Assembly: GCA_001443445.1 (NCBI GenBank)
Contig: LDXN01000005.1
Location: forward strand, 1-64,000
Direction: 5' to 3'
Origin: Candidatus Dadabacteria bacterium CSP1-2
GTDB lineage: Bacteria; Desulfobacterota_D; UBA1144; Nemesobacterales; CSP1-2
Length of the DNA: 64,000 bases
Shown here: positions 8,444 to 58,977 of the stretch, piece after piece
How positions within the stretch are numbered: position 1 is the stretch's first letter
Layout of the letters: each line of letters begins with the position of its first letter
The notes under the pieces: generated by a model
What the model was told of the DNA's origin: nothing
The model's database searches: none
Seen by the model: the letters and a program-made list of their open reading frames with translations, nothing else
Program-made: the position numbers and the translations under genes

Positions 8444-10849
8444 ATGAAACAAAACGCCAAATACATCCGTTGGTTAGAGGAGATTATTATTAATGATATT
8501 CCTCTAGTTGGCGGTAAGAATGCCTCTTTAGGTGAGATGTACTGCGAACTTACACATGAAGGGATTAAAATTCCGAATGGATTTGCTGTAACTGCCGAGT
8601 CATATTGGCATGTATTAAGCTCTGCAGGCATTCTTGACAAACTCAAGGAGGTAATGACAGGGCTAGATAAAGCCAATGTAGCCGATCTTGCCAGGCGGGG
8701 AAAGACGGCGCGCGATTTAATCTTAGGTGCTGGTATCCCCAATGACCTTTGGGATGAAATAAAGACTGCATACGATAGGCTCTGTAAAGAGTATGGCCCT
8801 GATACCGATGTTGCAGTAAGGAGTTCTGCAACGGCGGAAGACTTACCCACTGCTTCTTTTGCGGGCCAGCAAGAAACTTATCTAAATATCCGCGGATATC
8901 ATGCTCTGAGGGAGGCCTGCAGCAAATGCTTTGCATCACTATTTACGGACAGGGCTATATCCTATCGTATAGACAATAACTTCGACCACTTCAAGATAGC
9001 CCTTTCGATAGGGATAATGAAAATGGTCCGATCCGATTTAGCGACAAGCGGTGTGACTTTTACTCTTGATACGGAAACGGGTTTTCGTGATGTGGTTTTT
9101 ATCACAGCCTGCTATGGACTCGGGGAAAACATTGTCCAGGGAGCTGTTAACCCCGATGAGTACTATGTATTCAAGCCTACGTTTAGAAAGGGTTACAGGG
9201 CTATTATTAGAAAGAATCTAGGAGATAAAAGGATCAAAATGATTTATGGCCGTGGTGACTCAAAGGTCTTAACACGAAATGTAGAAGTACCGGAAGCCGA
9301 CCGCAAGCGGTTCTGTCTTATTGACGATGATATTCTCACATTAGCACGATATGCGATTGTTATAGAAGACCACTACTCAAAGAAAGCAGGTAAACCTCAG
9401 CCAATGGATATTGAATGGGCAAAAGACGGTATAAGTGGAGACTTATTCATTGTTCAGGCAAGGCCGGAAACGGTTAAATCACAGAAGGCTATGGATGTCC
9501 TTGAGACATATCACTTAGATAGGAAAGGCCCTGTATTGGGAAGAGGCAAGAGCGTTGGAGAAAAGATTGCAAGTGGCAAGGCTCGTGTTATCCCTGATGT
9601 ATCACACCTTCCCTTATTTAAACCTGGAGAGATAATTGTAGCTGACACTACCACACCCGATTGGGAGCCTGTGATGAAAACTGCTGCAGCCATTGTAACA
9701 AACAGGGGAGGAAGAACCTGCCATGCAGCCATAGTTAGCCGTGAACTTGGCATTCCTGCGGTGGTTGGTGCGGAGGATGCTACGGAAAAAATCAAAACTG
9801 GAAAGGATGTGACTGTAAGTTGCGCTGAGGGAGATGAAGGCATAGTTTATGAAGGAACACTCCCATTCCATGTTGAAAAGCTTTTACTCAAAGATCTACC
9901 ACGGCCGAAAACAAAGATTATGATGAATCTTGGAAATCCAGAGGAAGCGTTTTCTCTGTCTATGATTCCTAATGATGGCGTAGGTCTTGCACGAATGGAG
10001 TTTATTATTAGCAGTTATATAAAAATTCATCCAATGGCTCTTATACATCCTGAAAAGGTAACTGATGAAAAGGTAAAAAAGGAGATAAATGACCTTACAT
10101 TTGGTTATGAAAATAAGGAAGACTATTTTATAGAAAAACTGGCCCACGGTGTTGGAACTATCGCAGCGGCCTTTTACCCAAAACCTGTTATTGTGCGTAT
10201 GAGTGATTTTAAATCCAATGAATATGCGAGTCTTATAGGAGGAAAATACTTCGAACCTAAAGAAGAGAATCCTATGATAGGCTTCCGCGGGGCTTCCCGT
10301 TACTATGATGAAAGGTACAGAGAGGGCTTCGCCCTTGAATGCAGGGCAATGAAAAAAGTCCGCGAAGAGACGGGACTCACTAACCTTATCATCATGATCC
10401 CCTTTTGCCGGCGTGTGGATGAAGGAGAAAAGGTTCTGGCCGAGATGGCAAAAAATGGCCTGAGACGTGGTGAAAATGGACTTAATATATACGTCATGTG
10501 TGAAATTCCAAATAATGTCTTAATGATTGATGAATTCAGTAAACTTTTTGATGGTTTTTCAATCGGTTCTAACGATCTAACACAGCTTGTCCTCGGCGTT
10601 GACCGTGATTCTGAACTCGTTTCGCATGATTTTGATGAACGAGATCCTGGGGTGATGAGGATGATTTCTATGGCCATTCAGGGAGCCAGGAGGAATCATC
10701 GCCATAGTGGATTATGTGGTCAAGCACCAAGCGATTATTCTGAGTTCGCAGAGTCTTTGGTAAGAGAGGGAATTGATTCTATGTCACTCAATCCTGACTC
10801 GGTAATGAAAATCACCCTTAGAGTTATAGAGATGGAAAAGAGACTTTAA
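8444..10849 (+). CDS. ppsA: Phosphoenolpyruvate synthase (pyruvate, water dikinase)
   Basis: 801 residues. It converts pyruvate and ATP to PEP, AMP and phosphate for gluconeogenesis. Domain order is standard: N-terminal ATP-grasp region ('VGGKNASLGEM', 'VAVRSSATAEDLPTASFAGQQET'), the swivelling phosphohistidine domain ('GGRTCHAAIVSRELGIPAVVG'), then the TIM-barrel PEP-binding domain with 'EIPNNV' and the catalytic cysteine loop 'HSGLCGQAPSD'. There is no good Shine-Dalgarno before the ATG at 8444. Upstream 8249-8443 holds no gene and only a weak -35-like TTGACG near 8370. It pairs functionally with the PFOR in this window (pyruvate formation). Confidence 0.95.
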   Translation: MKQNAKYIRWLEEIIINDIPLVGGKNASLGEMYCELTHEGIKIPNGFAVTAESYWHVLSSAGILDKLKEVMTGLDKANVADLARRGKTARDLILGAGIPNDLWDEIKTAYDRLCKEYGPDTDVAVRSSATAEDLPTASFAGQQETYLNIRGYHALREACSKCFASLFTDRAISYRIDNNFDHFKIALSIGIMKMVRSDLATSGVTFTLDTETGFRDVVFITACYGLGENIVQGAVNPDEYYVFKPTFRKGYRAIIRKNLGDKRIKMIYGRGDSKVLTRNVEVPEADRKRFCLIDDDILTLARYAIVIEDHYSKKAGKPQPMDIEWAKDGISGDLFIVQARPETVKSQKAMDVLETYHLDRKGPVLGRGKSVGEKIASGKARVIPDVSHLPLFKPGEIIVADTTTPDWEPVMKTAAAIVTNRGGRTCHAAIVSRELGIPAVVGAEDATEKIKTGKDVTVSCAEGDEGIVYEGTLPFHVEKLLLKDLPRPKTKIMMNLGNPEEAFSLSMIPNDGVGLARMEFIISSYIKIHPMALIHPEKVTDEKVKKEINDLTFGYENKEDYFIEKLAHGVGTIAAAFYPKPVIVRMSDFKSNEYASLIGGKYFEPKEENPMIGFRGASRYYDERYREGFALECRAMKKVREETGLTNLIIMIPFCRRVDEGEKVLAEMAKNGLRRGENGLNIYVMCEIPNNVLMIDEFSKLFDGFSIGSNDLTQLVLGVDRDSELVSHDFDERDPGVMRMISMAIQGARRNHRHSGLCGQAPSDYSEFAESLVREGIDSMSLNPDSVMKITLRVIEMEKRL

Positions 10850-46772: not shown

Positions 46773-47195
46773 ATGCTTGCAAAGAATGTTATGAAAACTG
46801 AAGTTGTTACAGTATCGCCATCGGTTCCGATAACAGAGGCTGCTCTATCAATGAGAGAAGAGGATATAGGCGTCCTTGTCGTAGTAGATGATGGAGGAAG
46901 GCCTGTAGGAATAATAACAGATAGGGATATTGTGGTTTCAGTCGTAGCCAATAGTGAAAACCCCGTTGAGATTTTAGTTGAAGAGGTAATGACCAAAAAA
47001 TTAATTGTAGTTCAGGAAGATACAAGTATATTTGAGATACTTAAAATACTCGCAAAGAATAATATAAGAAGAGTGCCTGTGATGAAAAAGGGAAAGCTTG
47101 TTGGAATAGTATCGGTAGACGACCTTATTGTTGTTATCACAACGGAGCTTTCTAACCTAGCTTTGGCTTTAAGTGGCACCTCAAAGGTTCTTTGA
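46773..47195 (+). CDS. CBS-domain pair protein, copy C
   Basis: 140 residues, two CBS motifs ('IGVLVVVDDGGRPVGIITDRDIV', 'RRVPVMKKGKLVGIVSVDDLI'). It is more distant from copies A and B than they are from each other but has the same length. GGAGGAG precedes the ATG. It lies directly behind the kinase/activator pair with its own sigma-54 promoter, as expected for a target of that activator. It probably binds an adenine nucleotide. Confidence 0.92.
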   Translation: MLAKNVMKTEVVTVSPSVPITEAALSMREEDIGVLVVVDDGGRPVGIITDRDIVVSVVANSENPVEILVEEVMTKKLIVVQEDTSIFEILKILAKNNIRRVPVMKKGKLVGIVSVDDLIVVITTELSNLALALSGTSKVL

Positions 47196-47385: not shown

Positions 47386-48135
47386 CTACAATCCCAATCC
47401 CGATGTTATTAGAAGCATCAGGACTAATCCAATTATCACACCCCATGCAGTTTCTTGTCTAGAGCAACTACGGAGACTATCTGGTATCAGTTCGGCAGCG
47501 ACTAGATAAATCATAGCGCCGCCAGCAAACCCTAATCCAGATGGTAACAGGGGCATGAATACAGATACTAGAAGAAATGATGGCACAGCAAGGAGCGGTT
47601 GCGGCACGCTTGTCAAGATTGCATACCATGCACACCTCCATAACGATACACCCTTTGCGCGAAGTGGAAGCGTGACAGCCATTCCCTCAGGAATGTTATG
47701 AACAGCAATCGCAAGTGCAAGAAGTAGGCCGAATCTCAGCTCACCTGTCGCATAGCCTACACCAATCGCCACTCCTTCAGGGATGCTATGTATAAACATC
47801 GTCACCACAATCAGTACAGCTTGACGCGAGTCTACCGTGTTTAAGTTGGCAATACGCCAGTCGTTATCCTCCATGCGGCTTGCAATCCACGCAACAAAAG
47901 CAGCGCCAGCTAGCATTCCCAATACAACTTCCCACACGCTACCTCGACGGAGAGCCTGGTCAGCTAGGCTAAATACTGACGCTGAAATCATCATCCCACC
48001 TGCAACTGCCGACGCTATACCTTGCCACCTTACTGACGGGTGTCGGACAAAGGCAAACGGCAAGGCGCCTAGACCAGTTGCCAGGTCGGTTAGCAGTGCT
48101 ACAACGAAGACTTGAATAACTATATTGTCCAGCAT
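47386..48135 (-). CDS. ZIP family divalent metal transporter, copy 2
   Basis: 249 residues, about eight membrane segments. Metal-site helices are 'VTMFIHSIPEGVAIGVGYATG' and 'LAIAVHNIPEGMAVTLPLRAKG'. Related to the ZIP at 25038-25850 but with a higher-GC, different codon use, which hints at separate acquisition. It probably imports zinc or iron. No regulon promoter was found upstream. Confidence 0.9.
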   Translation of the reverse strand: MLDNIVIQVFVVALLTDLATGLGALPFAFVRHPSVRWQGIASAVAGGMMISASVFSLADQALRRGSVWEVVLGMLAGAAFVAWIASRMEDNDWRIANLNTVDSRQAVLIVVTMFIHSIPEGVAIGVGYATGELRFGLLLALAIAVHNIPEGMAVTLPLRAKGVSLWRCAWYAILTSVPQPLLAVPSFLLVSVFMPLLPSGLGFAGGAMIYLVAAELIPDSLRSCSRQETAWGVIIGLVLMLLITSGLGL

Positions 48136-48257: not shown

Positions 48258-48671
48258 TCATGTTTTCTTCTGAGTAAGTCTAATCAGGTATTTTCTTCCC
48301 TCTTCTGCAAGAAAGATAATTGGTGGAAATGCAAGAAGAAAAGCCCAATCTACAGGATCCAGAGAGAATGTATTAAATATTTTTTGAAAGAGAGGGAAAT
48401 AGACTATTATATTAATTATAACAAGCTCAGCCGCAATGCCAAGCAAAACCGATCGGTTATTTAAAAAACCTATTTTAAATACCGACTCTCTTTCTGTGCG
48501 GCAGGCAAAGACATTTCCTATTTGAGTTGCTATAATGCCGGCTAGACACATAGTTGTGGCTTTTAGGTAGATCGGGCCTGATGAAATCAATTCCATACCC
48601 GGACGCCACCCGGAGGAATAGTAAATAAAGAAGTATCCCGCCATACAGGCTAGTGCCTCAATTATCCCCAA
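48258..48671 (-). pseudogene. Out-of-frame C-terminal membrane domain of the P-type ATPase
   Basis: 137 residues with about four membrane helices ('EALACMAGYFFIYY', 'LKATTMCLAGIIATQIGNVFAC', 'GIAAELVIINIIVYFPL', 'FLLAFPPIIFLAEEGRKYL'). It is the cation-ATPase C-terminal domain that should continue the gene at 48662-51469. One base shift separates them. As a free-standing protein it would not be functional, so the ATPase is either broken, read by frameshifting, or affected by a sequence error. Confidence 0.85.
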
Positions 48672-51469
48672 AAAGCCATAAGCCCGAAGTAGCAGGGCGG
48701 GTCTAATAGCCTTTTTTTTGATGATCTAGGTGGCTGGTTCATTACCCCTGGTTCCGGACTCTCAGCTCCGAGTCCTAGGGCAGGAAGTAAGTCAGTACCA
48801 AGATCAACAGCCAATATCTGCATTATGGTAAGAGGTAAAGGAATCTTAAATAAGACAAAAAGAATGAAGGGAATTATTTCAGGAATGTTAGATGCAAAAA
48901 TATACGTTACAAATTTCTTAATATTTGAATATATTGCCCTTCCTTCCTCAATACCTGCGACAATACTTGCAAAATTATCATCCGTAATAATAATTGTAGC
49001 GGACTCTTTTGCAACGTCTGTCCCACGGAGACCCATTGCAATACCTACATGCGCCTTTTTAAGAGCTGGGGCATCGTTAACGCCATCCCCGGTAACAGCC
49101 ACGATTTCTCCCATATCCTTAAGAGCGTCTACTATCCTCATCTTATGATCGGGAGAAACCCTTGCAAATATAACCCCCTTTCCTCGTAAGGCTTCCTTAA
49201 GTTCATCGTCATTCATTTCTGTAAGCTCAGTACCTGTAATGATCCGAGCGTTTTCATCCCTTACAAGACCGATTTTTCTTGCGATAGAGTGTGCAGTAAG
49301 ACCATAGTCACCTGTAATCATGATAACTTTTATGCCTGCGGTTTGGCATAAGCTCACTGCTTGAGGAACCTCAGGTCGAGGAGGGTCCATCATCCCAGTA
49401 AGTCCCATAAAGGTAAGTTCATGTTCAACCTCACTTGGAGAGTAAATATCTTTTTTCTCTACTTCTCCATAAGCCAGTCCTAAAACCCTTAGTCCCTCAC
49501 TGGCAAAATTATCGAGGTGTTTTAGAATGCTAGTTTTGATTTCATCTGTTAAAGGCTCCTTCTTGCCATCTACATAAACCGAGTTACAAAGAGAAAGGAC
49601 CTCACGAGGCGCCCCCTTTACATTAGCCAGAATATTTTCCCCCTCCATTAGATTTATTGTAGACATGCGCTTTCTTACTGAATCAAATGAGAGTTGAAAG
49701 ATTCTTGGGTTCTTATCCTTTATATCTTTAAAGTCAAAGCCTGCTTTCTTGGCAAGTACTAGGAGTGCTCCCTCAGTAGGGTCACCGGCAATACTCCAGA
49801 ATGGTTTTTCATTCGACGGAGCTAGAAGCTCTGCATTATTGCAGGTGACGCCTATCTGAATTAGCGCTTCCATCCCTGACTTTTTTATTTCTTCCCGAGA
49901 CAGCGGAGAGCCATTATAAAGTATTTGACCACTTGGATCATATCCTGATCCTTCGATTTCAAAAAGACTATTGTTAAACCAAAGCCTTACTACGCTTATC
50001 TGGTTTGTAGTAAGAGTGCCAGTCTTGTCAGTACAGATAACAGTTGTGCATCCAAGGGTCTCGACAGATGACAGCCGTCTTATTATTACATGCCTTTTTG
50101 CCATTCTCTGCACTGCCATAGCCAGAGCCAAACTTACTGTGGGAAGAAGTCCCTCCGGAACGTTAGCTACAATAATCCCTATCGCAAATATAAAACTCTC
50201 AAAAGTTGTAAGATGGACAACGTAACTACCAAGGATAAAGAACAGGATCCCCATACTTATAGCTAAGATACTTACTACCTTTGTTACCTTTATCATCTCC
50301 CTCTGAAGCGGGCTTAATTCTTCTTTTATAACTTGAGTTAATCGCGCAATTTTACCTATCTCAGAGTGCATGCCAGTGGCGATAACTATGGCCCTTCCAC
50401 TGCCTGAAAGAACATTCGTACCCCCAAAAACAAGGTTAGGGATTTCGGTCCAAAGGAAATTCTTTCCATCAAAAACAGGCTCGGAAATCTTATAAACGGG
50501 TCTGGATTCACCTGTCAGGGCGGAGTTATCAATCTGCATATCAAAGGCTTCAAATAGTCTTCCGTCAGCCGGCACTTTATCCCCTTCTTCAAGTAGGATT
50601 ACATCCCCAGGAACTATCTCAGAGGTTAAGATCCTATCCTCTTTACTGTCTCTTAAAACCCGGCTGTAGGACGGAATAAGCTCCCTTAGAGCTTCGATCC
50701 CCTTTTCAGCTTTGTATTCCTGCCAGAAGGAAAAGGCAGCGTTTATAAAAATAACAGCAAGTATCGCCCAAGCCAGCTCAGGCAAATTAGCTATAAAAGC
50801 CAGGATTCCGGCTACCCAGAGAAGAATTGCAAGGAGATTGGTGAGATTAGCAGAGAAGCGAAGGATAAGTGGTTTTCTTCTAATTTTCTCAAGTAAATTT
50901 GATCCGAACCTCTGGAGTCTTCTTTTTGCCTCCTCTCTAGACAATCCCCTTTCGGTTGTGCCGAGTTCTAGTAAGAACTCTTTTTTCGGAAGATTAATAT
51001 ATGTATCCCAACCTATCCTTTCTGCGTTGATAATCTCATTTATTAATCCTTCCTTACTATATGCAGTGAGAATAGCATCGCAGAGTTTTTTATTTCGAAG
51101 GAGTCCCTCTGCTTTTGAAAGAATTTGGAGATGGGTTTCGCTCTCTTCTAATGGAGATAAAAGGAGAAATATAACTCGAACTGGTCTCTTATCAGGGGAT
51201 TCAAAATCTATTCCAGACCTTGATATCGCCAAACAGGCAACTACCTCTTTTATCCCCTCGATTGTAGCATGCGGTATTGCTACTCCGTTTTCAAACGTGG
51301 AAGGTGAAACCTTTTCTCTTTCTAAAAGTACGGCGACTATATCATTAGGATTTTTAATCTTCTTGGTCTTGTAAAGAATATCAGCTACTTCGTGTATCGC
51401 TTGCGCCTTTTTCTTTGCCTTTAGATCTAGTTCGATTGTATTTTTATCTAATAGTTCAGAGATCTTCAT
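48662..51469 (-). CDS. PTS-IIA domain fused to P2-type cation ATPase (frameshifted)
   Basis: 935 residues before the frame break. Residues 1-150 form a PtsN/fructose-type EIIA domain with the phospho-histidine His67 in 'GVAIPHATI'. From about 160 on it is a P-type ATPase: N-terminal cation-ATPase domain, 'LTGES' actuator loop, M4 'VPEGLLPT' (Na/K/Ca-type), phosphorylation site 'CTDKTGTLT' and hinge 'TGDGVNDAPALKKAHVGIAMG'. It would move a monovalent or divalent cation across the inner membrane, with the EIIA part as a regulatory input. The frame ends near 48668 after 'KKRLLDP'; the last four helices are in the other frame (48258-48671). Upstream (51602-51617) is a poor sigma-54-like site. Confidence 0.88.
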   Translation of the reverse strand: MKISELLDKNTIELDLKAKKKAQAIHEVADILYKTKKIKNPNDIVAVLLEREKVSPSTFENGVAIPHATIEGIKEVVACLAISRSGIDFESPDKRPVRVIFLLLSPLEESETHLQILSKAEGLLRNKKLCDAILTAYSKEGLINEIINAERIGWDTYINLPKKEFLLELGTTERGLSREEAKRRLQRFGSNLLEKIRRKPLILRFSANLTNLLAILLWVAGILAFIANLPELAWAILAVIFINAAFSFWQEYKAEKGIEALRELIPSYSRVLRDSKEDRILTSEIVPGDVILLEEGDKVPADGRLFEAFDMQIDNSALTGESRPVYKISEPVFDGKNFLWTEIPNLVFGGTNVLSGSGRAIVIATGMHSEIGKIARLTQVIKEELSPLQREMIKVTKVVSILAISMGILFFILGSYVVHLTTFESFIFAIGIIVANVPEGLLPTVSLALAMAVQRMAKRHVIIRRLSSVETLGCTTVICTDKTGTLTTNQISVVRLWFNNSLFEIEGSGYDPSGQILYNGSPLSREEIKKSGMEALIQIGVTCNNAELLAPSNEKPFWSIAGDPTEGALLVLAKKAGFDFKDIKDKNPRIFQLSFDSVRKRMSTINLMEGENILANVKGAPREVLSLCNSVYVDGKKEPLTDEIKTSILKHLDNFASEGLRVLGLAYGEVEKKDIYSPSEVEHELTFMGLTGMMDPPRPEVPQAVSLCQTAGIKVIMITGDYGLTAHSIARKIGLVRDENARIITGTELTEMNDDELKEALRGKGVIFARVSPDHKMRIVDALKDMGEIVAVTGDGVNDAPALKKAHVGIAMGLRGTDVAKESATIIITDDNFASIVAGIEEGRAIYSNIKKFVTYIFASNIPEIIPFILFVLFKIPLPLTIMQILAVDLGTDLLPALGLGAESPEPGVMNQPPRSSKKRLLDPPCYFGLMAFWG

Positions 51470-52164: not shown

Positions 52165-52974
52165 TCAAATATCCTTTCTTTCGAAAATAAAAAGAGCTAC
52201 TAGTAGTGGAAGTAAAAGCCAAGCAAGGAGGGCTATTGAGGAAATTATCATGCCTGTGAAACTTCCAAGGGTTTTACTGAGCACTGCTCCTGCAGGTCCC
52301 ACAAGAGCTGCACTACCAAGTGATGTAAGAAGTGTAGTCCTTACAAGATCTGCAGGATTTAAAAACAGAAGTGCAATGATTAGCTCTCCGTAAGCTAGGG
52401 TTAAACCCACCAAGATAAAATCGTAGATGATCACAAACCAAAACCAGACCATAAAGCTAATCCCGATAGATTTTGCTTTTTCCCCTAAGGTTATTGATAC
52501 CAGTGAGGCAATTGAGAGAAAAATAAGAGAAAGCAGAATAGAAAGAAAAACAAGTAATAAAAAGTGTGATAGCTCCTTAGAGCCTATGTTTAAAATAAGA
52601 ATTAGCCCAGCAGAAATAAAGCCAAGAAGAAGAGTTGCTGTTATGGCTATTCCAAGACCGAGATATTTCCCTAATACAGCTTCTTTTCGGCTAATGGGCT
52701 GTATTAAGAGCAATTCCCACGATTCTTTAGCTCCTGTAAAACTGTTTGCTCCCATTATGAGAGCCATAAGGGGGACAAGAATTAGAGCAAGGTTCAGTAA
52801 GCTCACGGCAGGTTTTAAAAAGGTATTATCCCCGCCACTTACGATTCCAGAATAAGCTACAGTTGAGTCAAGGAGAATAAAAAGAACAGCAAAAAAGAAA
52901 AACCATCTGTCTCTTATAGCGTCTAAAAACTCTCTTTTAGCGATGACGTAAACCGATCTCATCTCAGTGTTCAT
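52165..52974 (-). CDS. nosY: NosY-type ABC transporter permease
   Basis: 269 residues with about six membrane segments, beginning 'VYVIAKREFLDAIRDRWFFFFAVLF', typical of ABC-2 permeases in nos clusters. With NosF and NosD it supplies a sulfur species or copper for maturation of the NosZ copper centre. The start overlaps the end of nosL by about 11 bp. It is the last gene of the operon. Confidence 0.9.
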   Translation of the reverse strand: MNTEMRSVYVIAKREFLDAIRDRWFFFFAVLFILLDSTVAYSGIVSGGDNTFLKPAVSLLNLALILVPLMALIMGANSFTGAKESWELLLIQPISRKEAVLGKYLGLGIAITATLLLGFISAGLILILNIGSKELSHFLLLVFLSILLSLIFLSIASLVSITLGEKAKSIGISFMVWFWFVIIYDFILVGLTLAYGELIIALLFLNPADLVRTTLLTSLGSAALVGPAGAVLSKTLGSFTGMIISSIALLAWLLLPLLVALFIFERKDI

Positions 52975-53422
52975 GTCTTTGTTTCCAGTCTATATTGAAT
53001 AGGGATTTAAACTCCTTGACTTCACCCTTGGTTTTGTCTGCAGTTTCTTTGGTTTTAATTAGGTCTTTAAAGGCTATGATTCCATATCCCATTGGTGTAT
53101 GAATCCCTTGAGAAAGTGCAAAGTAAGCTTCTTCTCCCTTAATCCAGGTTGCGCTATCAAAGTCCATCACCCAAAAGTGAGCCTTATCGAGACTCAAATC
53201 ATTGGATTGAGCATAAGCCAGCATGCACCCAATATCGTCAAATTTGTGAACTTTTCTTTTTGTAACAATCTCAGCCGAGTAGTGAAAATCATCTATCATC
53301 ATCCGACAGTATTCACACATGTCCGTTCCCTTGTTGATAGAAACAGGAGAATTTTCGGATTGACAGCTAATAATTAACAAAAATAAAAAGATTGCTATCC
53401 TAATACCAATTCGATTTTTCAA
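52964..53422 (-). CDS. nosL: NosL copper-binding lipoprotein
   Basis: 152 residues. I place the start at TTG 53422, because this gives a clean lipoprotein signal ('MKNRIGIRIAIFLFLLIISC'); the longest ORF runs back through a repeat element into nosF. The mature protein carries the NosL motif 'MCEYCRMMI' and 'KFDDIGCMLAYA'. NosL delivers Cu(I) to NosZ in the periplasm. The gene lies behind a palindromic repeat (53441-53512). Confidence 0.88.
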   Translation of the reverse strand: MKNRIGIRIAIFLFLLIISCQSENSPVSINKGTDMCEYCRMMIDDFHYSAEIVTKRKVHKFDDIGCMLAYAQSNDLSLDKAHFWVMDFDSATWIKGEEAYFALSQGIHTPMGYGIIAFKDLIKTKETADKTKGEVKEFKSLFNIDWKQRHEH

Positions 53423-53440
53423 AAGGGTACAACCCAGCCT

Positions 53441-53512
53441 GTCATTGCGAGAAGCGAAGCGACGAAGCAATCTCAAAATAAGGGATTGCTTCGCTAAAGC
53501 TCGAAATGACAA
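53441..53512. repeat. REP-like inverted repeat between nosF and nosL
   Basis: GTCATTGCGAGAAGCGAAGC ... AGGGATTGCTTCGCT ... CGAAATGAC forms a long imperfect hairpin. This 'TCATTGCGAG..GAAGCAATC' type repeat is common in many environmental bacteria. It has been inserted in the intergenic gap and fills the false N-terminus of the long nosL ORF. Confidence 0.7.
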
Positions 53513-53531
53513 CTTTCTTTTGAATGCGCTG

Positions 53532-54458
53532 CTATTTAATAGAATTTGTATAAGTATCGGAATCACCCTCCGTGTATTTGATAAAGATTTCTTCAAGTGA
53601 TGAGTCTTCTGTCCATAAGTCCATAACGTTGAACCCATTTTCCACGAGAGTTTTAATCACCTTTGATTTATCCTCCGGAGTGATAAAGAACCTGAGTCTA
53701 TTTCCATTAATTGTAGCGTTCTTTGCTCCTAAGTCCTCGACAAGACTGAGTGCCTGTGAACTCAGATTTTCGATTACTACTTCAAGTATTGATCCCATTT
53801 TAAGCCTGGTCCTTAGGCCCCCTAATGTATCAAGTGCCACAACCTTTCCTCGAATGAGTATAGCGATCCTGTCGGCTAGTTCCTCTATGTAACTGAGGAT
53901 ATGGGATGAGAGGAGAATCGTTTTCCCCTTACTTTTCTCTTCCCTGATAAGCTTTTTAAAAGCTATTCTTCCCTCAGGATCTAAACTGATTGTAGGTTCA
54001 TCAAGGATAAGGATTGGAGGGTCAGAAATAATCGCCTGGGCAAGGGCAAGCCTCTGAAGCATTCCACCTGATAAGGCTCCGACTTTTTTATTTCTCTGTT
54101 CAAGAATTCCTACAGCACTGAGGGCATTTTCCAAATTGTTATTATTTACCCCTCTAAGAGAGGCATAAAATTCAATAACTTCAAGCACGCTTAAGTTCTC
54201 ATGAAAAGAGATTCTCTGGGGAAGGTATCCGATTCTCTTTTTTATCTCTTTTGGATTTTTACTAACCTCAATATTATCAACTGTGATTTTTCCACCACTT
54301 GGATGTACTAACCCAACAATAGTGTTGAGAAGAGTGGTTTTACCTGCACCATTTGGACCGACTATGGCAAAGGTCTCAGCCTTTTCGATATCGAGAGAAA
54401 CTCCTATAAGGGCTTTTATATTTCCATAATCCTTAGTAAGATTTTCTATTTTAATCAT
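53532..54458 (-). CDS. nosF: NosF ABC transporter ATPase
   Basis: 308 residues. Walker A 'GPNGAGKTT', signature 'LSGGMLQRLALAQA', Walker B 'ILILDEPTISLDPEG' and the switch histidine 'LLSSHILSY' are all intact. It energises NosY. The ATG overlaps the nosD stop by 4 bp, so the two are coupled. Confidence 0.95.
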   Translation of the reverse strand: MIKIENLTKDYGNIKALIGVSLDIEKAETFAIVGPNGAGKTTLLNTIVGLVHPSGGKITVDNIEVSKNPKEIKKRIGYLPQRISFHENLSVLEVIEFYASLRGVNNNNLENALSAVGILEQRNKKVGALSGGMLQRLALAQAIISDPPILILDEPTISLDPEGRIAFKKLIREEKSKGKTILLSSHILSYIEELADRIAILIRGKVVALDTLGGLRTRLKMGSILEVVIENLSSQALSLVEDLGAKNATINGNRLRFFITPEDKSKVIKTLVENGFNVMDLWTEDSSLEEIFIKYTEGDSDTYTNSIK

Positions 54459-55753
54459 TTTGAATCTTCTTCAATTTGAACGGGATTCATTAACGGATAT
54501 GGGTCGTTTAACTCCACAGGATTTAACACAGGAAGAACCCTTTCTGCAAACTCAAGTGCTTTTAACCCTGGACTTTCTAAAAAAACTGTAAGGTCGGGAT
54601 ATCGTTTCATAAGGTATGATAGAAGCTTTACCGGCTTGTATGGAATGTCTCCTATTCCATCTCCATTTAAATCATATCCATTATATCCCTTGTAGTCGCT
54701 CCAGTAATTTCCCGTTGAGTTTTTAAAAAACCGGTTTGTTGTGCGGTCTGTGTCCGTCATCACCTGATATGTATTATCTAAAAAGTTATTGGCATATAGA
54801 ACGTTATCATTGGAGCTAGAGAATAGATCAATTGCCCAGCCGTTTTGTGAGAAGATATTCTTAGTAAAAACATTTCTATTTGCATCATCCATAAAAATCC
54901 CTACAGTGTTATTAGCGATTAAATTTTCTTCAGTAATGCTATCGGTTAGAGATTTAAGAAGCATTCCGAAACCGTTTGGACCTAGGTTATCTTTGAAAGT
55001 ATTTCCTCTAAGAATGATGTTCTTAGAATACATAAGTGCGCTTCCTGTTCCATTTCTCTCAAATGTATTTCCTTCAAATGTGTTTTTATCTGAATACATA
55101 TAGTGGAGACCGTATCTTACGTTTCTCTCACAGTGGTTATTTCTGATTAAGTTACCTGGTGAGAACTCTACGTATATACCATCCCTATGCTTTCTTATGT
55201 GATTTCCTTCTATTGTGTTATTTGGCGACTTCCAGAGATGTACTCCGTTTCCATTTGTTTCTTCCGTTGTGTAATCTGCTCTTCCATAGGATGTGTTATT
55301 CCTAATTATGTTATTAGGGGACGAATAAAGATAGACACCGATTATATTATCCTCAAGTTGGTTTTCTTCTATAGTAACCCCTTCTGAATTCATTACCTTT
55401 ATTCCGCTTTCATCTTTGCGAAGATCAACTCCACTTTCTCGTATAGTGAAACCCTTAATACTGGCTTTATCAGTCTCAATTCTCACAACATCGCCTCTAT
55501 AATCACCCTCAATAACGGGATTTTCTTCACCAATAAGATGCACGCTTTTATTTATAACTATGTTCTCTTTATAAACTCCGTTTTTAACAACTATTGTATC
55601 TCCTTCATTCGAAACCTGGAGAGCTTCTGTAATAGAAGAATAGGTCAGTCCTTTTCCTACGGTGATCTCCCTCGTAAAGGATCTCACTTGGAAGCTAGTG
55701 AGGAGAATTAAACATGCGATTAAGATAATCTTTTTTGTCTTGATTCGAGCCAT
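54455..55753 (-). CDS. nosD: NosD periplasmic copper-site maturation protein
   Basis: 432 residues from ATG 55753, where a normal Sec signal begins ('MARIKTKKIILIACLILLTS'). The rest is a right-handed beta-helix of NosD/CASH repeats ('GNTFKDN', 'NTIEGNHIRKHRDGIY' and similar). It ends with 'NYWSDYKGYNGYDLNGDGIGDIPY', the usual NosD C-terminal repeat. NosD helps assemble the CuZ cluster. It overlaps the upstream membrane-protein gene by about 34 bp. Confidence 0.93.
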   Translation of the reverse strand: MARIKTKKIILIACLILLTSFQVRSFTREITVGKGLTYSSITEALQVSNEGDTIVVKNGVYKENIVINKSVHLIGEENPVIEGDYRGDVVRIETDKASIKGFTIRESGVDLRKDESGIKVMNSEGVTIEENQLEDNIIGVYLYSSPNNIIRNNTSYGRADYTTEETNGNGVHLWKSPNNTIEGNHIRKHRDGIYVEFSPGNLIRNNHCERNVRYGLHYMYSDKNTFEGNTFERNGTGSALMYSKNIILRGNTFKDNLGPNGFGMLLKSLTDSITEENLIANNTVGIFMDDANRNVFTKNIFSQNGWAIDLFSSSNDNVLYANNFLDNTYQVMTDTDRTTNRFFKNSTGNYWSDYKGYNGYDLNGDGIGDIPYKPVKLLSYLMKRYPDLTVFLESPGLKALEFAERVLPVLNPVELNDPYPLMNPVQIEEDSK

Positions 55754-56379
55754 AGTATTATCGGACCAAGGATTGCAGCAAAGCCCACGAGTATAGAACC
55801 GGTGCCCGGAAGGCTTATGACTGTAAAATTTGCAAGTCGCTTCCATCCTATAACAGGTGGCATATAAGGATCTATTTTTATGGCTGCTTGGGGACTAAGG
55901 TTATGTCCATATTCATATAGCCACCTGTAGAAATCACCGATCATAAAAATCCCAAATAGGATAAATAAAATCCATCCAAGTGTAGCAAAATGCCATTTTC
56001 CCACTATTGCTGATAGAAGTGCCAGTATACTAAAGGCAATAATCATGAAAGGAAGCCATCGGAACTCCTTGAATTCATCGGGTCTTATCTCGTGCATCCC
56101 TATGTAGTGGTTAAGACCGTTAATTAGCCTGGGAACATTACTTGTCATCCCAGTTTCGGGATTATACTCAGTTAATTTGTTTGCGTATATGGACATCTTT
56201 ATACCTTTTGGATACTGAGGAGCCACTAGTGTTATAGTCCAGACGGGGAGAAATATCCCCGGGATAATTAACAGGGCTGCGGCAAGAATAAGGATTCGCA
56301 CTCGCTTTGATAAGCTAATGGGAATCTCATAACTTTTGCCTGTGCGATTATCTATAATAGTTAAGGTGTCTTTAGCCAT
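55720..56379 (-). CDS. Nos-cluster membrane protein (NosB-like position)
   Basis: 219 residues with about five membrane segments ('ILILAAALLIIPGIFLPVW', 'MIIAFSILALLSAIVG', 'TLGWILFILFGIFMIGDFYRWLYEYGHNL', 'GSILVGFAAILGPIILWLESRQ'). It is placed between nosZ and nosD, like the conserved membrane protein of Sec-type nos clusters. The extreme N-terminus 'LTIIDNRTGKSYEIPI' is oddly like the start of citrate synthases, probably by chance. The function is unknown; electron transfer support to NosZ is presumed. Confidence 0.75.
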   Translation of the reverse strand: MAKDTLTIIDNRTGKSYEIPISLSKRVRILILAAALLIIPGIFLPVWTITLVAPQYPKGIKMSIYANKLTEYNPETGMTSNVPRLINGLNHYIGMHEIRPDEFKEFRWLPFMIIAFSILALLSAIVGKWHFATLGWILFILFGIFMIGDFYRWLYEYGHNLSPQAAIKIDPYMPPVIGWKRLANFTVISLPGTGSILVGFAAILGPIILWLESRQKRLS

Positions 56380-56444
56380 GTCATATCTCCTTTACCTGAG
56401 AGAACAAGAGTCATTTTTATAATACCTACTACAATTAGAAAATC

Positions 56445-56530
56445 GAGAGAGGAGAAGGACAAAAAGACTACCTCCTCTCTTTTTCCAACTAGTTTTTTAT
56501 TTGGAGCCCTTAGGAACTACCTCATATACC
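56445..56530 (-). repeat. Duplicated nosZ 3' end with terminator
   Basis: This segment repeats the end of nosZ plus its following hairpin (compare 56547-56636). In the right frame it encodes 'VYEVVPKGSK' and a stop, against 'GYIEVASKGSK' in nosZ itself. Each copy is followed by a stem of GAGAGGAG / CTCCTCTC or GAGAAAGGAG / CTCCTTTCTC type, so there are two tandem terminators. It looks like the leftover of a second nosZ copy. Confidence 0.65.
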
Positions 56531-56545
56531 CTTTATTGTAGAGGA

Positions 56546-56588
56546 TTGAGAAAGGAGAGGGACAAAGAGATTGTCACCCCTCCTTTCT
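56546..56588 (-). terminator. Hairpin directly after nosZ
   Basis: On the minus strand GAGAAAGGAG pairs with CTCCTTTCTC around a 20-base loop, 12 bases after the nosZ stop. There is no strong T-run, so it may act as a processing or attenuation hairpin inside the nos operon. Confidence 0.45.
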
Positions 56589-56600
56589 CACATCGGTTTT

Positions 56601-58433
56601 TTATTTGGAGCCTTTAGAGGCTACCTCGATATAACCTTGCATTTCCTGATGAAGTGCTGAGCAGAAGTTTGTGCAATAAAATGGATAGATACCCGGCTTC
56701 TCAGCAACCCATTTAACCGTTTTTGTTTCACCAGGCTCAATCTGCATATCTACGTTAGAGAAATTGATTCCGAATCCATGAGTAATATCCACGTCCTGTT
56801 CTAGATTAGTTATATGGAAGTAAACATTATCACCTTCCTCGAATTTAAGGATATTAGGAGTGAAATGGCTCCTTATCGCAATCATGTAGACGTCTACCCT
56901 ATTTCCGTTTCGCTCTACGCGAGCTTGGTCAGCACTTTTAATTGCGTATGGGTCTTTGTTTTGGTCTAGCGGATATACAAGCTCAGGTTTTATGAGAGTA
57001 GCATCTATTATCTGACCATAGTGGGGTTCCACAGGGGTGGGAAAATCAAGTAGCATTTCCATCTTCTTGCCGGAAATATCAATAAGCTGAGCGCTTTCTG
57101 GATGCGAAGGTCCTACAGGTAGGTATCTGCCTTTAGCGATTTTGTTCATGGCAAGAACGAACTTACCCCTTGGTTTAACAGTATCTCCGTGTATAGCGGC
57201 GAGATGCCCGATATTGTAATAAACTGGTATCTTATCTACCACTTCCCATGTCCCAAGCTTCCATTTGGCAATCGCAGAATCCACAAAAAGGGATGTATAA
57301 GCATATCCCTGGTCATCAAATTGGGTATGAAGAGGACCTAAACCTACAGGAACTTCAGCAACCCTCACAGATTCGTACTTGAGGATTGGTATACCCATAA
57401 CTTCTCCATCAAAATCGCCTTTTTTGATAGCTTCCTGCATTTTCTCAAAACCGTGCACAGTGACTACTGCAGCGAGCTTTCCACCCCCAACTATATATTT
57501 CCCATCAGGAGTGACATCGGAACCATGCGGGCTTTTAGGTGTAGGCAGAAAGTAGACGATACCTTTTACCTCTTGCGGATCAATGACTTTAACACCGTTT
57601 ATCTCCTTGTACTTTCCCTCCTTAATAGCTTCTTCAGCGGCTTTCCAGTTTACAGCGGCTATAAAGTCCCTGTCTTTTTGAGAGGCTTCGACCTCTAAAT
57701 CCTTATACGCCTCTTCTGAGTTGTAACAGCTAAAAAAAGCCCAACCGTAACTGACCCTTTTACCGGCATCGGCTAAGTCATAATCAAATGGCGGCATCAG
57801 GATTTGGAAAGCGTTTTCCATGTGACCAGTATTTTTATCCACACTTACAAAGGCGATTACGCCGTTAAAATTTTCTTTGTAGGTCTCAATTGGAACATCA
57901 CGGTTTGGCACAGGAATGGAAAATCTCGTTGCGCCAACCAAATACTCTGTATTGGGCGTGACGAATGGACTTGCATGATTCCCCCCTACGTTCGGAAGTG
58001 TAATTATTTCTTTCGTCACGAAATCCTTTAGGTCTATTCGGGCTATACGGCCATTGGCAGTATCATTGATAAATAACCACCTTCCATCGTAATCACCATT
58101 GGTTTCTGAAAGAGCTGGATGATGGGCATCCCCCCAAATGTAGCCCCCCATTATCTCCTTACTCCCCTCATCAATACCCCAGCCTATAGCTACGTCAGGT
58201 GCAAAAACGGGTATCATCTTTATTAATCTTCCCGAAGGGAGTCCAAAGACCCCAATCTGACCTGAATGACCACCAGAGAGAAAGGCATAGTAGCTATCAA
58301 GCTTTCCCGGTGGTACATAAACCTTCTCTGCCGGGCTTTGCCCTCCTTTGCAGGCAAATAGAAGCCCGAGAAAACCAACTAAAAGAGGGAGAGATAAGAG
58401 TCTCATTATCTTCCCACAATTTATAAGTCTCAT
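56601..58433 (-). CDS. nosZ: Nitrous oxide reductase, Sec-type (clade II-like)
   Basis: 610 residues. NosZ reduces N2O to N2 in the periplasm. The N-terminus is a Sec/lipoprotein signal ('LLVGFLGLLFACKGG') rather than a Tat signal, marking clade II. The beta-propeller histidine motifs of CuZ are seen ('GGHSGQIG', 'DAHHPALSE', 'GGNHASPF', 'PHGSDVTPDG', 'GPLHTQF'). The C-terminal cupredoxin domain has the CuA motif 'FYCTNFCSALHQEM'. AGGAGGT lies well before the ATG at 58433. The lipobox suggests it may be membrane-anchored. Confidence 0.97.
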   Translation of the reverse strand: MRLINCGKIMRLLSLPLLVGFLGLLFACKGGQSPAEKVYVPPGKLDSYYAFLSGGHSGQIGVFGLPSGRLIKMIPVFAPDVAIGWGIDEGSKEIMGGYIWGDAHHPALSETNGDYDGRWLFINDTANGRIARIDLKDFVTKEIITLPNVGGNHASPFVTPNTEYLVGATRFSIPVPNRDVPIETYKENFNGVIAFVSVDKNTGHMENAFQILMPPFDYDLADAGKRVSYGWAFFSCYNSEEAYKDLEVEASQKDRDFIAAVNWKAAEEAIKEGKYKEINGVKVIDPQEVKGIVYFLPTPKSPHGSDVTPDGKYIVGGGKLAAVVTVHGFEKMQEAIKKGDFDGEVMGIPILKYESVRVAEVPVGLGPLHTQFDDQGYAYTSLFVDSAIAKWKLGTWEVVDKIPVYYNIGHLAAIHGDTVKPRGKFVLAMNKIAKGRYLPVGPSHPESAQLIDISGKKMEMLLDFPTPVEPHYGQIIDATLIKPELVYPLDQNKDPYAIKSADQARVERNGNRVDVYMIAIRSHFTPNILKFEEGDNVYFHITNLEQDVDITHGFGINFSNVDMQIEPGETKTVKWVAEKPGIYPFYCTNFCSALHQEMQGYIEVASKGSK

Positions 58434-58467
58434 TTTATTTACCTCCTTTTTGTGATTAGATTTATCT

Positions 58468-58944
58468 TTATTCCTTATGCTCAGATTCTTCCTTTGCTTC
58501 TGAATCCTTTTCTCTTAAATACATAATGATTGCCTGCGCTTCTTCTGGAGTAACATTTTGATTAGGCATCTTTACCAGATAAGTTGCCAGCAGTTCCTTA
58601 GCTATAGGGTCTTTTTCTACCATTACTTCAGGATGAAGAATCTGGTTTTCGATCCAATCGAGCTTACGTCTTTTTGTAACACCAGCGAGATCCGGACCTG
58701 TTATTCTTCCTTTTCCAATTGTATGACATGCTATGCAGCCTTTGGTCTTAAATAATTCCTCACCCTTTTCTGCAAGCACCTCATTAATCGGAGGAGGAGC
58801 TTGTGGCTTCAACTGTTCTGCCTGAATTACTTCCTTCTTTGTTTCACCGACTTCTGATTCCGATTTTTCTTCTTTATCTCCTTTACAGGATAGGAGCATC
58901 ACAATAAAACCCACCAGAATTATCGTGGAGATCTTTCTTTTCAA
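58468..58944 (-). CDS. Lipidated mono-heme cytochrome c, nos-associated
   Basis: 158 residues from TTG 58944, chosen because GGAGGT lies 8 bp upstream; the ATG at 58959 would translate the ribosome site. A lipoprotein signal ends 'IVMLLSC', then a charged linker, then a cytochrome c domain with the heme motif CIACH and the axial methionine likely in 'VKMPNQNVT'. It is the first gene before nosZ and probably donates electrons to it. Confidence 0.9.
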   Translation of the reverse strand: MKRKISTIILVGFIVMLLSCKGDKEEKSESEVGETKKEVIQAEQLKPQAPPPINEVLAEKGEELFKTKGCIACHTIGKGRITGPDLAGVTKRRKLDWIENQILHPEVMVEKDPIAKELLATYLVKMPNQNVTPEEAQAIIMYLREKDSEAKEESEHKE

Positions 58945-58977
58945 TTCTCTTACCTCCATCTCGGTTAGCTTTAGTAA

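Follow-up and report, generated by a model that had tools for sequence, protein, structure and literature searches.

An EIIA(Ntr)-like domain fused to a P2-type cation ATPase in Candidatus Dadabacteria and other bacteria

The 64,000-nucleotide stretch of contig LDXN01000005.1 analysed here (referred to as the window), from Candidatus Dadabacteria bacterium CSP1-2, encodes a protein in which a PTS EIIA domain is joined in one reading frame to a P2-type ATPase. This fusion is genuine. We infer the phosphorylation, the ion and the direction of control, and consider it rather probable that a PTS-Ntr-type relay phosphorylates His67 of the EIIA domain and gates a Na+/K+-type pump. The wider account is that of one ancient fusion, which gave a pump bearing both a catalytic Asp phosphate from ATP and a regulatory His phosphate delivered from PEP by a PTS relay, was kept across several phyla including the anammox bacteria, and lets the PTS gate ion pumping directly; for this whole account the chances seem to us evenly balanced.

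The fused gene and the break in the window copy

The features of the window described in this and the next section lie on the reverse (-) strand unless stated otherwise. The fusion ORF (48662-51469) starts with ATG and is 935 aa long as sequenced, being frameshifted near its 3′ end. As the earlier note had proposed, the ORF begins with an EIIA domain: PTS_EIIA_2 (PF00359) matches residues 5-147 over profile positions 1-142 of 144, with 103 bits against a cut-off of 27, and in the whole-genome search the domain (51029-51457, about residues 5-147) scores 107.5 bits. The histidine predicted to be the phospho-acceptor is indeed residue 67 (codon 51269-51271) and aligns with the histidine of the GIAIPH motif in E. 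coli PtsN. The second active-site histidine, His113, is encoded at 51131-51133. The EIIA domain is followed by Cation_ATPase_N, E1-E2_ATPase, Cation_ATPase, Hydrolase and then the first 53 of the 175 positions of Cation_ATPase_C, and this ATPase part spans 48683-50995 (residues 159-929). The domain set of a P2-type ATPase is present (Cation_ATPase_N, E1-E2_ATPase and Hydrolase, with the DKTGT, TGES and TGDGVND motifs). The DKTGTLT motif with the catalytic Asp481, which is invariant in our alignment of 26 fusion sequences (A1), is found at 50009-50029, the PEGLL motif of M4 (ANVPEGLL in Na,K-ATPase) at 50144-50158, the SNIPE motif of M5 at 48878-48892 and the DLGTD motif of M6 at 48791-48805.

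Although 48258-51469 had been taken as one gene, it is not one open frame, since the ORF ends at 935 aa, with its last base at 48662. What remains of the membrane domain continues out of frame (48258-48707), and Cation_ATPase_C positions 57-175 are found in a different frame, in the ORF 48258-48671. The sister gene L003 is intact, with 1074 aa and 81% identity to the window copy. Alignment of the two reveals a single base missing from the window at 'GACCCGCC-CTGCTA' (48695-48698, about 48696) and no other gap in 3.2 kb. This one-base loss results in ten wrong codons and then a stop, leaving the last four membrane helices out of frame. The complete ten-helix membrane domain with Cation_ATPase_C is present in intact relatives of the L003 type and is not present in the window as sequenced. 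The description of the protein as a full P2-type ATPase thus holds for the relatives and not for the window copy, because the frame of the latter is broken late in the gene.

Judged by its sequence, the window copy is the same gene as in the relatives, broken either by one base or by a sequence error. Compared with L003, dN/dS is 0.11 after the break, 0.08 in the ATPase part before it and 0.19 in the EIIA part. Given that the missing base is the sole indel in 3.2 kb and that dN/dS is 0.11 versus 0.08 on its two sides, the break must be very recent or erroneous. It is possible, though doubtful, that the copy in the window is a functionless pseudogene or truncated pump, as the early stop and the loss of the last four helices would imply; it is also consistent with this that the same-genus genome G028 was found to carry no fusion at all in a search of 58 genomes of the window's phylum. 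However, the single indel and the similar dN/dS values point to constraint until very recently, and an error of one base in sequencing or assembly is no less likely. Such a loss would concern the window copy only and would be compatible with a relay-gated pump elsewhere. Programmed frameshifting at the A8 run (48712-48719), where A9 would also restore a frame, was considered and rejected: the L003 alignment puts the missing base about 15 bases further on, at a CCC run, and the split frame is seen in none of the relatives examined.

Distribution of the fusion and its gene neighbourhood

The fusion is found in at least 29 genomes besides that of the window; the earlier suspicion that it might be unique to this assembly can therefore be dismissed. 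This count consists of G029, G032 and at least 27 loci where the EIIA and ATPase parts share one reading frame; the latter come from the 80 closest loci in a scan of relatives with one genome per species. By record title, the carriers are Deltaproteobacteria (from groundwater), Planctomycetota/Brocadiales (anammox bacteria), Nitrospinota, NC10 and Fibrobacter, these phylum labels being the submitters' names on metagenome-assembled genomes. Among the 58 genomes searched in the window's own phylum there are 4 carriers, all belonging to the window's family: the window's genome, G029, G032 and G033, the last of which appears to be the L003 genome (also reached as G001). On plasmids the fusion was not found, and the matches there are to the ATPase part only. 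As nearly all carriers are metagenome-assembled, one may suspect an artefact of assembly or gene calling. However, 29 other genomes, whose ATPase identities fall to about 46%, have the same open frame across the junction, and these independent assemblies already refute an artefact, the probability of which we regard as negligible.

All fused sequences fall into a single clade in a tree built from the ATPase part (FastTree support 0.98); L024, whose contig begins within the gene, belongs to it as well. The non-fused ATPase relatives in this tree are without a comparable N-terminal extension. The 29 fused EIIA domains placed in a tree also cluster together and separately from the free EIIA proteins that their genomes encode, although the support is weaker (0.75).

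In the window, the fusion gene adjoins a ZIP-family metal transporter gene (47386-48135), which is also its neighbour in L003 and L185. A small CBS-domain protein is encoded nearby on the forward (+) strand (46773-47195), and L003 and L185 have it close to the fusion as well. With regard to the transported ion, the neighbourhood yields no conserved partner across phyla, only the ZIP and CBS genes within the window's family.

On the other side of the fusion gene, a gene cluster of nitrous-oxide-reductase type occupies 52165-58959. Its products are NosD (TIGR04247, 441 bits), an ABC ATPase and an ABC-2 permease, together with three proteins that we named by reading their sequences: a NosZ-like protein (56601-58433), a NosL-like lipoprotein and a small cytochrome c (58468-58959). 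The first 80 or so residues of the NosL-like ORF (52964-53638) resemble a translated interspersed repeat instead of a lipoprotein start, and the protein probably begins further downstream. Many contigs of the same genome carry short repeats of this interspersed kind, about 30-250 bases long and in dozens of places (matches to L179 450-660 and 5490-6030).

The EIIA domain, the pump and the putative phosphorelay

The fused domain is of the Ntr subtype, as had been claimed, in the sense that its best matches in the PDB by both profile and fold are PtsN structures (2a0j, 1a6j, 4gqx and 3urr). The profile of the fused domains hits 2a0j at 3.9e-21 and 1a6j at 9.8e-21, with mannitol EIIA next. The AlphaFold model of the window domain (pLDDT 94.9) has EIIA-Ntr 1a6j as its best fold match (TM 0.89). 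On the other hand, the score against the PtsN equivalog TIGR01419 is 73.3 bits, below the cut-off of 138.7, and by this measure the domain is PtsN-like but is not PtsN itself.

The EIIA part has diverged much further than the pump: across the 26 sequences the mean pairwise identity is 38% (minimum 18%) for EIIA versus 62% for the ATPase. Only M1, H67, P106, H113 and S118 of the EIIA domain are invariant in A1. H67 and H113 are unchanged in all 30 sequences considered (29 of 29 domains in the tree plus the contig-truncated L053), H113 likewise being present in 26/26 of A1. By simple arithmetic with random placement, the probability that both histidines would fall by chance among the four internal invariant positions is about 5e-4. 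H67 is kept even where the AIPH motif has drifted. The residue before H67 is other than Pro in 19 of the 26 sequences, with AIFH or AVFH in 17, AILH in L003 and SLGH in L025. Because this Pro is replaced, the competence of these 19 for phosphotransfer is uncertain.

By sequence and by fold the ATPase part is closest to Na,K-ATPase, which also provides the closest solved structures. The frameshifted 935-aa ORF scores 595 bits against the P2C model TIGR01106, below the cut-off of 946.1. Between 24 and 26 of the 26 fusion sequences retain the residues equivalent to E327, N776, E779, D804, D808, Q923 and E954 of Na,K-ATPase. The position of D926 is Asn in all 26, and also in the non-fused relatives; therefore, a 3Na:2K stoichiometry should not be assumed. 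Two of the 26 sequences have H-L instead of S-N in M5 (positions 860 and 861 of L003) and two have E for D in M6 (position 893 of L003), variants that possibly reflect a different ion preference. The placement of the EIIA domain on the pump is not readable from the full-length model, because its pTM is 0.61.

A relay acting on H67 would need a phosphodonor. The earlier note had named the lack of a ptsP/ptsO-type donor in the genome as evidence against its proposal. Taken literally such a lack is seen in the window's own assembly, but among 28 fusion genomes 26 contain EI (PF05524) and 25 contain HPr. In the Planctomycetota/Brocadiales carriers (G002-G006), EI and HPr even share one frame. Profile searches of the window's own assembly (2.48 Mb, 92% complete) found neither EI nor HPr, and neither was found in the NC10 genome of L025; in the closest relative (G001/G033), EI was found and HPr was not. 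The sole PEP-utilizers_C match in the window's genome (window 8444-10849) was rejected as a candidate, as it belongs to a PEP-synthase-like protein and not to EI.

A true loss of the phosphorelay from the window's genome is not concluded. In the same-genus genome, HPr and EI lie beside purD-glmS-glmU, and this HPr-linked EI is its only EI. The purD contig of the window's genome (C69) breaks off about 1 kb further along, within a transposase-like gene (IS110-type by our reading), and the HPr-EI block is absent in its entirety. Because C69 ends exactly at the HPr-EI place with the flanking block missing, the absence of these genes from the assembly is unproven. A GAF-type (PtsP-like) EI is present in the L003 genome and missing from the corresponding contig of the window's genome, C1, which is intact. 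Contig C30 carries rpoN-hpf-ptsN-hprK-rapZ-EIIA(Man), with ptsN in the neighbourhood of rpoN and no HPr gene adjoining. HPr kinase and EIIA(Man) genes are found beside ptsN both on C30 (L083) and in G001/G033 (L134), and an HPr gene in neither assembly. Between EIIA(Man) and a NagD-like gene there is a conserved 107-aa protein (L083 1192-1515 on C30; also L134, L180 and L183), which occurs in at least four genomes of the window's family and has no Pfam or NCBIfam match.

We propose the following model. A primary P2 (Na+,K+-ATPase-like) cation pump would carry a phospho-acceptor EIIA(Ntr) domain as its cytosolic N-terminus. Phosphate would pass from PEP to EI (either an HPr-linked EI or a GAF-type PtsP), on to HPr and finally to His67 of the fused domain. 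The latter would be the terminal acceptor and a built-in switch, with no sugar-transport step. In its unphosphorylated form the EIIA domain may dock on the cytosolic domains of the pump and restrain the E1/E2 cycle, and phosphorylation may free it. Na+ export and/or K+ uptake would then track the PEP/nitrogen state without a diffusible PtsN. That the unphosphorylated form is the restraining one is a guess by analogy with E. coli PtsN and YcgO. A link of the fused EIIA domain to potassium is likewise suggested by analogy, namely with E. coli and Sinorhizobium PtsN (PMC11808508, PMC9239096). This relay model is supported by the domain order, the single clade, the invariant H67 and H113, the PtsN-like profile and fold of the EIIA domain, the Na,K-type cation residues and the occurrence of both EI and HPr in almost every carrier, and it has precedents in YcgO, KdpD and LacS (see below). 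It is weakened by the loss of the Pro before the His in 19 of 26 sequences, by the lack of EI and HPr in L025 and the window assembly, by the lack of HPr in G001/G033, by the replacement of D926 and by the fact that outside the window's family no conserved neighbour gene indicates an ion.

The main rival explanation, which we consider unlikely but deserving of attention, is that the EIIA domain serves for docking or sensing and is not phosphorylated, much as in SLC4 transporters, its histidines being kept for binding of a metal, protons (pH) or a ligand. Lower down the list of fold matches there are indeed the cytosolic domains of the SLC4 exchangers AE1/AE2 and of the Na+-driven chloride/bicarbonate exchanger, the fused-domain profile matches SLC4A11 weakly, and the EIIA-like fold of SLC4 proteins has been noted before (PMC4664831). 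The drift of residues around H67 in many members and the two carrier assemblies with neither EI nor HPr are also consistent with this explanation. However, exactly the two EIIA active-site histidines are invariant while the rest drifts, and EI and HPr are present in nearly all carrier genomes.

Control might also run in reverse or sideways, with the conformation of the pump exposing or hiding the EIIA domain, which would compete with free PtsN for HPr-P or inform the PTS-Ntr of the ion status. Most carrier genomes have a free EIIA from the same family with which it could compete; no second EIIA was seen in G008, G017, G019 and G022, and one membrane pump would be a poor titrant of a soluble carrier. 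We regard this possibility as quite improbable and favor the relay acting on His67. In three of the fusion genomes (G018, G011 and G023), additional frames of about 450-850 aa include an EIIA domain; these may be sugar PTS enzymes or further fusions of EIIA with a transporter.

Comparison with known systems

Transporters regulated by or fused to EIIA domains are already known (LacS, PMC10710835), as is the action of free PtsN on K+ systems (PMC11808508, PMC9239096). Our literature search found no account of an EIIA-P-type ATPase fusion; an earlier mention is possible, as the main comparative-genomics review of the PTS (MMBR 2005) was outside the search. If true, the relay model would represent, as far as the literature found goes, the first covalent PTS control of a P-type ATPase. 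So far, the role of PTS-Ntr in ion balance is known from free PtsN acting on K+ systems that are separate from it. A fusion in which the invariant histidine pair is covalently tied to the pump names one target without a search, and the question it poses, whether a PEP/nitrogen relay sets the activity of a primary pump, can be tested with a single purified protein. The fusion further suggests that carriers living by ion gradients, such as the anammox bacteria, use the relay for ion control.

The fused domain is similar to PtsN acting with YcgO, TrkA and KdpD in that it is of the same subtype by profile and fold and has the same two active-site histidines, and the partners of PtsN move or sense K+ (PMC11808508, PMC9239096, PMC4664831). 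Unphosphorylated PtsN binds and inhibits YcgO (PMC11808508) and binds KdpD (PMC9239096). In contrast to the fused domain, which is a covalent part of a primary P-type pump, PtsN is free and diffusible and acts on separate transporters or a kinase.

In LacS, the EIIA-Glc-like domain belongs to a different EIIA fold family and is found at the opposite end of the protein. Unlike the fusion pump, LacS is a secondary sugar carrier. The resemblance is that LacS-type permeases are transporters with an EIIA-like domain of their own, and LacS is modulated by HPr-dependent phosphorylation of that domain (PMC10710835).

The pump part resembles the P2C ATPases (Na+,K+-ATPase and H+,K+-ATPase) and their prokaryotic relatives in its catalytic motifs and most cation-site residues. 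It differs from them in the TIGR01106 score of the 935-aa ORF below cut-off, in the replacement of D926 by Asn and in the EIIA domain in front. Finally, SLC4 anion exchangers (Band 3, NBCe1) are likewise ion transporters that begin with a cytosolic domain of EIIA fold (PMC4664831), although their transporter fold is different and they stand outside any phosphorelay. Since the human SLC4 exchangers share this N-terminal fold, the bacterial fusion offers a useful comparison.
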